Shown one piece after another: positions 12,578-13,733 of a stretch of 64,000 nucleotides of DNA. The notes under the pieces are model-generated. The model was not told where the DNA came from, did not search any database, and saw nothing but the letters and a program-made list of their open reading frames with translations. Made by a program: the position numbers and the translations under genes. Source of the stretch: Methanosaeta sp. PtaB.Bin018 (GTDB lineage Archaea > Halobacteriota > Methanosarcinia > Methanotrichales > Methanotrichaceae); the NCBI GenBank assembly GCA_002067755.1, contig MVQH01000086.1, positions 1-64,000 on the forward strand, given 5' to 3'. How positions within the stretch are numbered: position 1 is the stretch's first letter; the number at the start of each line of letters is the position of its first letter.

Positions 12578-13336
12578 TTACCTGCGAATAGACCTGGTGA
12601 GCTCTGAGACGAATGTGGCTACATCCCCACTCTGCTCTACAGCCGTGCCTGTCACTATCAGGTCTGCGCCAGCGGCCACCAGCTTTGCAGCTGCATCGCC
12701 ACTACGAATCCCACCGCCGACGATGAGAAGAGCTGTGCCAAGAGCCTTCTTCACTGCAGAGACCATCTGCACTGGAACTGGCGAGTCTGCGCCCGAGCCT
12801 GCTTCTAGATAGACCAGCCTCATGCCCATGAACCTCGCAGCCAGGGCATAGGCCACTGCCAGCTCAGGCTTCGTCCTTGGGATCAGCCGGGCGTCGCCCA
12901 CAAAACCCACTGTTCCGCCAGGCTCGATGATGATGTAGGCCATGGGGATCGGCTCCAGACCATAGCGAAGAACCAGCGGAGCGCCGAGAGCCTGGTTCTC
13001 TATGAGGTACGAGGTGGAGCGAGAGTTCAGCAGGCTCATGAAGAAGACTGCATCTGCATTTTCACAAAGCCCTGCCACGCTGCTGGGAAAGAGGATGACG
13101 GGGAGATCACAGCTCTCCTTTATCCTATCTACCGTCTCGTGAAGAGGGATGCCTGCTGCGCCCACTGAGCCGCCTACCATGATGGCATCAGTGCCGCCTT
13201 CGTCTGCAGCAACAGCTATGCTTGCAGCCTGCGCGGGGCTCTGCGAATCAGGGTCGATCAGCGTTAGATGGCCGGCACCATGCTGCGATACAGCCTGGCG
13301 CAGCAGCTTCTCGACCCCTCCTACCTCGAACTTCAT
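12578..13336 (-). CDS. Geranylgeranylglyceryl phosphate synthase
   Basis: A 252-residue TIM-barrel prenyltransferase that joins geranylgeranyl diphosphate to sn-glycerol 1-phosphate, making the first ether bond of archaeal membrane lipids. Signature parts are TLIDPDSQ (24-31), MVGGSVGAAG, AYIIIEPGG, YLEAGSGAD and VGGGIRSG, the last forming the phosphate-binding end of the barrel. Length is usual for the family. The ATG directly follows the TAA of the L40e gene with no spacer, so translation is probably coupled. Confidence 0.94.
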   Translation of the reverse strand: MKFEVGGVEKLLRQAVSQHGAGHLTLIDPDSQSPAQAASIAVAADEGGTDAIMVGGSVGAAGIPLHETVDRIKESCDLPVILFPSSVAGLCENADAVFFMSLLNSRSTSYLIENQALGAPLVLRYGLEPIPMAYIIIEPGGTVGFVGDARLIPRTKPELAVAYALAARFMGMRLVYLEAGSGADSPVPVQMVSAVKKALGTALLIVGGGIRSGDAAAKLVAAGADLIVTGTAVEQSGDVATFVSELTRSIRR

Positions 13337-13486
13337 TTAAGCTGTCTTGCTCTCCTTGGACTTCATCCTCAGGCCGCGATAGCCGCACTTGCGGCAGCGG
13401 GTTGCTTTTATGGGATTTCGCGCATTGCAGCGCATGCATATCTTGAGATTCAATGTTCTATTTTCTGCCTCTGGAAATCTAGCCAT
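13337..13486 (-). CDS. rpl40e: Large ribosomal subunit protein eL40 (L40e)
   Basis: A 49-residue zinc-ribbon ribosomal protein: [20 protein letters not shown] and so on, with zinc ligands C17, C20, C31 and C34 (CMRC and CRKC) and a basic tail. In eukaryotes the same domain is made as a ubiquitin fusion; archaea make it alone. The start at 13486 matches the known N-terminus; a GAGCTGATT element is just upstream. It follows the tRNA-Ser gene on the same strand by 58 bases and is followed without a gap by the lipid synthase. Confidence 0.95.
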
Positions 13487-13558
13487 TACAATCAGCTCTT
13501 TTAGTCCCGATGTGCTCGGATATGAAACTTTCCGAAATATATAGCGCCGGGGTTGGGA

Positions 13559-13591
13559 TTTTCCTGGCAGGGCTCCTTTGCGCCCTGCCAT
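13559..13591 (-). other. tRNA-Ser intron 2, in the T loop
   Basis: The insert splits the T loop after TTCAAA. It contains a perfect 9-bp stem TGGCAGGGC/GCCCTGCCA with an eight-base loop. Exon TTC pairs with intron GAA to give a 3-bp central helix, and the T stem forms the outer helix after a 3-base bulge AAT, a relaxed bulge-helix-bulge. Removal restores TTGGG-TTCAAAT-CCCAA. Confidence 0.82.
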
Positions 13592-13642
13592 TTTGAACCC
13601 AAGCGTCCCTGGAAGGGACAACAGGTCTCGAGCCTGCCGCGT

Positions 13643-13676
13643 ATGAACTCCCGCCGTCAGCATTTGCCGGCGGAAA
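13643..13676 (-). other. tRNA-Ser intron 1, in the D arm
   Basis: The insert follows the conserved A21 of the D loop. It contains a perfect inner stem CCGCCG/CGGCGG. Exon bases GGAC pair with GTTC near the intron end, giving a 4-bp central helix flanked by bulges AAT and ATA(C), the layout of an archaeal bulge-helix-bulge splice site. The exact cut is ambiguous by one to two bases: removing 13641-13675 instead gives a perfect 3-bp D stem. Confidence 0.8.
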
Positions 13677-13724
13677 TTGTCCGCTCTGCCACCCCGGCCC
13701 GATCAGTTCTCCGTCTGACCCATG

Positions 13725-13733
13725 CTTTATATC
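13725..13733. promoter_or_regulatory. TATA element shared by tRNA-Ser and malic enzyme
   Basis: The sequence CTTTATATC reads as a TATA box on both strands (GATATAAAG on the minus strand). It lies 27-34 bases before the tRNA on the minus strand and about 50-58 bases before the malic enzyme ATG on the plus strand. Correct spacing for the tRNA is clear; use by the other side is inferred. Confidence 0.55.

Follow-up and report, generated by a model that had tools for sequence, protein, structure and literature searches.

A tRNA-Ser(CGA) gene with predicted introns in the D loop and the T loop in Methanotrichaceae, archaea with an α′2-type splicing endonuclease

Introduction

The 64,000-nt stretch analyzed here (the window; positions 1 to 64,000 of contig MVQH01000086.1 of Methanosaeta sp. 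PtaB.Bin018) carries on its minus strand, at 13545..13698, a 154-nt serine tRNA gene with the anticodon CGA, which takes on a complete set of acceptor, anticodon, variable, and T stems only after two inserts are removed. The locus thus raises the question of whether it is a working gene with two introns at unusual positions or a decayed one and, if it works, which enzyme would process it. Thermoproteota, Nanoarchaeota, and ARMAN are the main groups in which non-canonical and multiple tRNA introns are known (PMC4090602, PMC4033280). Euryarchaeal tRNA genes are said to have a single intron at position 37/38 (PMC4090602), and the α4 and α2 endonucleases of euryarchaea are said to handle canonical bulge-helix-bulge (BHB) motifs only (PMC4033280). 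We consider it highly probable that this gene, the sole tRNA-Ser(CGA) gene found in the genome, carries two BHB introns, of which the D-loop intron is the older, and that the α′2 endonuclease EndA cuts them out so that the joined exons yield an 87-nt tRNA.

Anatomy of the tRNA-Ser(CGA) Gene

The unspliced gene was not called by ARAGORN in the window, and Rfam gave no tRNA match at the locus, even at E = 1. With both inserts removed, the 87-nt product, which includes G73, was called tRNA-Ser(cga) by ARAGORN. The original prediction of a class II tRNA-Ser(CGA) is supported by this call, by homology, by covariation, by intronless orthologues, and by a conserved 5-bp variable stem. The prediction that the acceptor (7 bp), anticodon (5 bp), variable (5 bp), and T (5 bp) stems all pair in the spliced form also held. 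The D stem is incomplete, with G10-C25 and C11-G24 followed by a conserved A12·C23 mismatch (approximate window positions 13687 for A12 and 13640 for C23); in the precursor, G18 is available as a partner for C23 (GCG:CGC).

The inserts, estimated earlier at about 34 and 33 bases, measure 34 nt (intron 1, 13676..13643, minus strand) and 33 nt (intron 2, 13591..13559, minus strand). Intron 1 had been assigned to the D arm, which it does interrupt, and its position can be refined to 21/22 in the D loop, as set by the Rfam alignment of intronless orthologues; it shows a bulge AA|T, a central helix GGAC:GTTC, a bulge AT|A, and an inner stem of 8 bp. Intron 2 lies in the T loop at 59/60 and shows a central helix of TTC:GAA plus an A·G pair, a 3′ bulge AA|T, and an inner stem of 9 bp. 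The anticodon CGA (13628..13630, minus strand) is invariant in the family alignment and stands in the uninterrupted loop CTCGAGA, so that no intron occurs at 37/38, as had been stated.

Conservation and Covariation in Methanotrichaceae

Both inserts were found in 30 distinct Methanotrichaceae loci, across which the exons are near invariant and the insert bodies differ in sequence and length (31-47 nt in the D loop, 31-34 nt in the T loop). Covariation was assessed over a structure made up of the tRNA stems, both central helices, and both inner stems, with 500 shuffles as the control. Standard pairs amounted to 96.6% over this structure, and pairing fell to 53% when the partners were slid by one base. 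Changes on both sides affected 10 pairs, the inner stems of the inserts accounting for 9, and 56 compensatory cells were observed compared with 24.7 ± 5.6 in the shuffles; neither the count of pairs changed on both sides nor the cell count was matched in any of the 500 shuffles. The recurrence of the inserts at 30 loci, together with these compensatory changes, excludes chance as their explanation.

The central helices vary by G-C/G-U only in the D loop and not at all in the T loop; their support therefore comes from conservation, and the inner stems carry the covariation. The A·G pair of intron 2 is A-U in three relatives (L004, L025, and L031), and one T-stem pair is altered on both sides in genome G025. 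A TATA-like promoter element, GATATAAA, stands about 34 nt upstream of the tRNA (approximately 13726..13733, minus strand), and almost every Methanotrichaceae copy has AGATATAAA or a close variant at −32 to −36. On the strength of these sequence comparisons, we regard the inserts as real, inherited BHB introns and not as products of decay.

The genome belongs to Methanothrix (Methanotrichaceae). Methanothrix/Methanosaeta metagenome-assembled genomes (MAGs) contain the closest named relatives of the neighboring gene, and gene order around the locus is kept in them: the tRNA is followed downstream by a gene that, from its translation, we take to be rpl40e, for ribosomal protein L40e (13337..13486, minus strand), and then by what is presumably a geranylgeranylglyceryl-phosphate synthase-like gene (12578..13336, minus strand), which served as the anchor for fetching relatives. 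A mechanically predicted open reading frame (13337..13663, minus strand) extends from the tRNA into rpl40e; the true start of L40e is the ATG at 13486.

Splicing Endonuclease and Quality of the BHB Motifs

The endonuclease type, which the original prediction had singled out for checking, proved to be α′2. The only PF01974 protein found in the genome is encoded by a two-domain open frame of 372 aa, and it matches the α′2 EndA of A. fulgidus over both halves (E = 2.7e-42). The catalytic His is missing from the N-terminal repeat, and the C-terminal repeat keeps the H and K of the triad (FRVY, PHSEY, SVRK), the roles of these residues being taken from the A. fulgidus enzyme. By its sequence, then, the Methanothrix EndA is assigned to the bimodular α′2 type, and its two-domain plan is common to nearly all sampled Methanosarcinia. 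A relaxed endonuclease bearing the Crenarchaea-specific loop, which lies between FYG and the LSL strand, was considered and rejected: the Methanothrix sequence, FYGKPVGERLQLSL, has no insertion there in the alignment with 1r0v and 3p1y, the latter of which has an extra stretch at this site and is presumably the A. fulgidus chimera with the loop, and ten Methanotrichaceae enzymes agree on its absence.

In the proposed mechanism, the transcript would fold into a BHB motif at 21/22 in the D loop and a second at 59/60 in the T loop, and EndA, the only such enzyme found, would cut within the bulges. The exons would then be ligated, presumably by RtcB, and the resulting 87-nt tRNA would read UCG in translation; both introns are presumably removed in vivo by this route. 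Archaeal endonucleases act on the BHB regardless of the mature tRNA domain (PMC8707768), and the unusual intron positions would therefore be no barrier in themselves.

The precursor folds well compared with dinucleotide shuffles (z = −5.5), and the named stems of both BHB-like structures are present, the inner stems with support from covariation. The 4-bp central helix with its 3-nt bulges occurs in every one of 54 distinct D-intron regions drawn from several families, and 53-54 of these regions keep the first three inner pairs. Several points nevertheless weigh against cleavage of these motifs by EndA. The BHB of intron 1 is not a textbook one, in that its outer helix can form only with a 3′ bulge of 4 nt or by sharing a G; in intron 2, three standard pairs plus A·G make up the central helix, and the T stem serves as the outer helix; the minimum-free-energy fold of the precursor does not contain the BHBs; the BHB forms are less stable than the unconstrained folds, by about 5 kcal/mol for the D loop and about 3 for the T loop; and α′2 enzymes have been described as strict or narrow (PMC6379350, PMC12397907). 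The claim of BHB-like structures stands for the stems and has to be qualified for the outer part of intron 1, and both motifs are near canonical, not fully so.

These deviations, taken with the narrow specificity described for α′2 enzymes, favor the alternative that the introns are true but are removed by a different or additional nuclease, or with a cofactor, because EndA itself is too strict. We consider this alternative unlikely, although it fares best among the rivals. No second PF01974 protein was found in the genome to do the work, endonucleases do not need the mature tRNA domain to act on a BHB, and, according to one group, bulge-helix-loop (BHL)-like motifs are cleaved by homodimeric forms as well (PMC8707768). 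In addition, the D-loop intron occurs in most sampled genomes of the class that have an α′2 enzyme, and removal by EndA remains the explanation we prefer.

Splice Sites and Intronless Relatives

The position of the cuts can be compared with genes that lack the insert. The insert is lacking in two Methanoperedens genomes, in ANME-2c-GOS (ANME, anaerobic methanotrophic archaea), and in the Methanosarcinales MAG B131_G9, all of which have the sequence GGACTAACGCGG, equal to the predicted spliced product; intronless Methanoperedens and others read GGACTA|ACGCGG exactly over the predicted D-loop junction. T loops outside Methanotrichaceae are TTCRAAT, matching the prediction for the spliced form. 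In the 54 D-intron regions, the predicted exon ends are always A, namely the second nucleotide of bulge 1 and the third of bulge 2, and the intron-side bulge bases vary.

A cut of intron 1 displaced by one base (AAT|GCG) would repair the A12·C23 mismatch by creating an A12-U23 pair in the D stem, and this is the attraction of the second alternative, which we hold to be very improbable. The intronless genes of Methanoperedens, B131_G9, and others have ACGCG at this place, and the third nucleotide of bulge 1 varies (T, A, or G), as fits an intron position; the shifted 3′ splice site was rejected on this conservation and on the intronless orthologues. The same A12·C23 mismatch is present in intronless orthologues, and those scored reach 47-48 bits with RF00005, so that the mismatch belongs to the tRNA itself and indicates neither decay nor a wrong splice site. 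Across lineages, A12·C23 is seen in Methanotrichaceae and intronless Methanoperedens, and A12-U23 in ANME-2, Methanococcoides, and Methanomethylovorans.

Copy Number and Other tRNAs in the Genome

The tRNA complement of the assembly (104 contigs, 96% complete) was surveyed with Rfam RF00005 and ARAGORN. A second, intact tRNA-Ser(CGA) had been named beforehand as a sign of decay, and none was found: the gene used as a query against its own genome gave a single match, a strict pattern for an intronless copy found none in the genome, and no second tRNA-Ser(CGA) was among the 42 RF00005 hits. A covariance score far below those of other tRNAs had been named as a further point against the gene; the near-identical intronless orthologues, at 47-48 bits, fall among the genome's own tRNA-Ser genes, at 43-59 bits. 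The remaining serine tRNAs (GCT, GGA, and TGA) have no introns or canonical ones by ARAGORN, and relatives share the inserts of tRNA-Ser(CGA).

A decayed pseudogene with two random insertions, with UCG read instead by tRNA-Ser(UGA) through wobble at U34, is the least probable alternative of all: the presence of tRNA-Ser(UGA) (L117) might make tRNA-Ser(CGA) dispensable and its D stem does carry an A·C mismatch, but this reading was rejected on the conservation and the intronless orthologues, since at 30 loci the exons hardly vary and the inserts diverge through compensatory changes, the promoter is conserved, intronless orthologues share the mismatch, and the T-stem pair in G025 changed on both sides.

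Extra T-arm matches were inspected, and none resembled further intron-bearing tRNAs. Ala(TGC), Leu(CAA), and Leu(GAG) were not among the RF00005 hits, which may reflect assembly gaps or further interrupted genes. The tRNA-Trp(CCA) gene (L082 1279-1487; G000 contig 19) has a canonical 134-nt intron holding a box C-like TGATGA, and a box C-like element in the archaeal tRNA-Trp intron is a known feature.

Distribution and Evolutionary History

The T-loop intron was found by a strict pattern in 42 of 50 Methanotrichaceae genomes and in none of 150 other genomes of the class. G025 has the intron and was missed by the pattern solely on account of a changed T stem, and the contig of G057 breaks off within the intron; six MAGs of the family (G045, G049, G067, G081, G090, and G096) yielded no tRNA-Ser(CGA) at all and were treated as assembly gaps. 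The D-loop intron is more widespread, being present in many Methanosarcinaceae (Methanohalophilus, Methanococcoides, Methanomethylovorans, and ANME-3). Of the six MAGs of ANME-2 type or related Methanosarcinales that were examined, four have it, and it also occurs in most of the genera sampled from family f3 and in families f4 and f6. Outside the class it occurs in at least G329 and G200, with its 3′ part also in G209, and a minimal form of 17 nt is found in f6 and G200. On the simplest reading, the D-loop intron is old, being shared by the class Methanosarcinia and certain families elsewhere in the phylum, and the ancestor of Methanotrichaceae acquired the T-loop intron before the family radiated; losses elsewhere are likely.

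Related genes show further variation. In two genomes of family f2 (L157 and L158, from G002 and G005), the D loop of tRNA-Ser(CGA) is uninterrupted and an intron lies at the canonical 37/38. A different family of the phylum (L218, G200, 1501-1636; L210, G209) has a tRNA-Ser(CGA) with a long extra variable-arm stretch, perhaps a third intron position, which in G200 coexists with the 17-nt D-loop intron. An anticodon-arm pattern detected no tRNA-Ser(CGA) in five named Methanosarcina genomes (G518-G522), BLAST likewise yielded no such gene in Methanosarcina, and the covariance model gave no hit in genus g18, presumably Methanosarcina; the Methanosarcina gene may be missing, strongly divergent, or interrupted at more sites. 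In an ANME-2 genome (L293 1477-1565), ARAGORN calls an intron-bearing tRNA-Ser(CGA) as intronless, with the 5′ end apparently falling within the D-loop intron; such calls are likely to give rise to misannotation.

Relation to Known Systems and Significance

The type of intron is already known, and the surprising part is the enzyme context. In Thermoproteota and other archaea, BHB-type introns likewise lie outside 37/38, including at 20/21, 22/23, and 59/60, with two or three per gene (Sugahara et al. 2007, 2008, reviewed in PMC4090602, PMC4033280). Those organisms, however, mostly have (αβ)2 or ε2 endonucleases, whereas Methanotrichaceae have α′2, with one tRNA species seen to be affected and the intron positions fixed family-wide. 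Korarchaeum cryptofilum, described in a 2014 review as the only α2 archaeon with non-canonical introns, also combines a homodimeric α2 endonuclease with such introns (PMC4033280), but the Crenarchaea-specific loop is absent from the Methanothrix EndA. Methanothermobacter thermautotrophicus and Methanopyrus kandleri are euryarchaea with tRNA genes that carry more than one intron; they belong to different lineages, and the Methanopyrus endonuclease is (αβ)2. The multi-intron list of the same review includes both and no case from Methanosaeta or Methanosarcinia (PMC4033280). We found no description of the Methanotrichaceae case in openly accessible full-text literature; GtRNAdb, supplements, and subscription papers, which lay outside the search, may list it.

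A D-loop intron across Methanosarcinia and a double intron fixed in Methanotrichaceae contradict the statements of these reviews (PMC4033280, PMC4090602). On balance, we favor the view that α′2 EndA without the Crenarchaea-specific loop routinely processes D- and T-loop introns with a slightly relaxed BHB, in which case the rule that ties intron position and number to enzyme type would fail across an entire class of methanogens and ANME archaea. Cultured mesophiles offer a direct test of what α′2 enzymes accept. For these common methanogens and ANME archaea, tRNA annotation misses or truncates tRNA-Ser(CGA), and the stepwise gain of introns, first in the D loop and then in the T loop, together with the intronless sister lineages, would make this gene a dated case of tRNA intron turnover.
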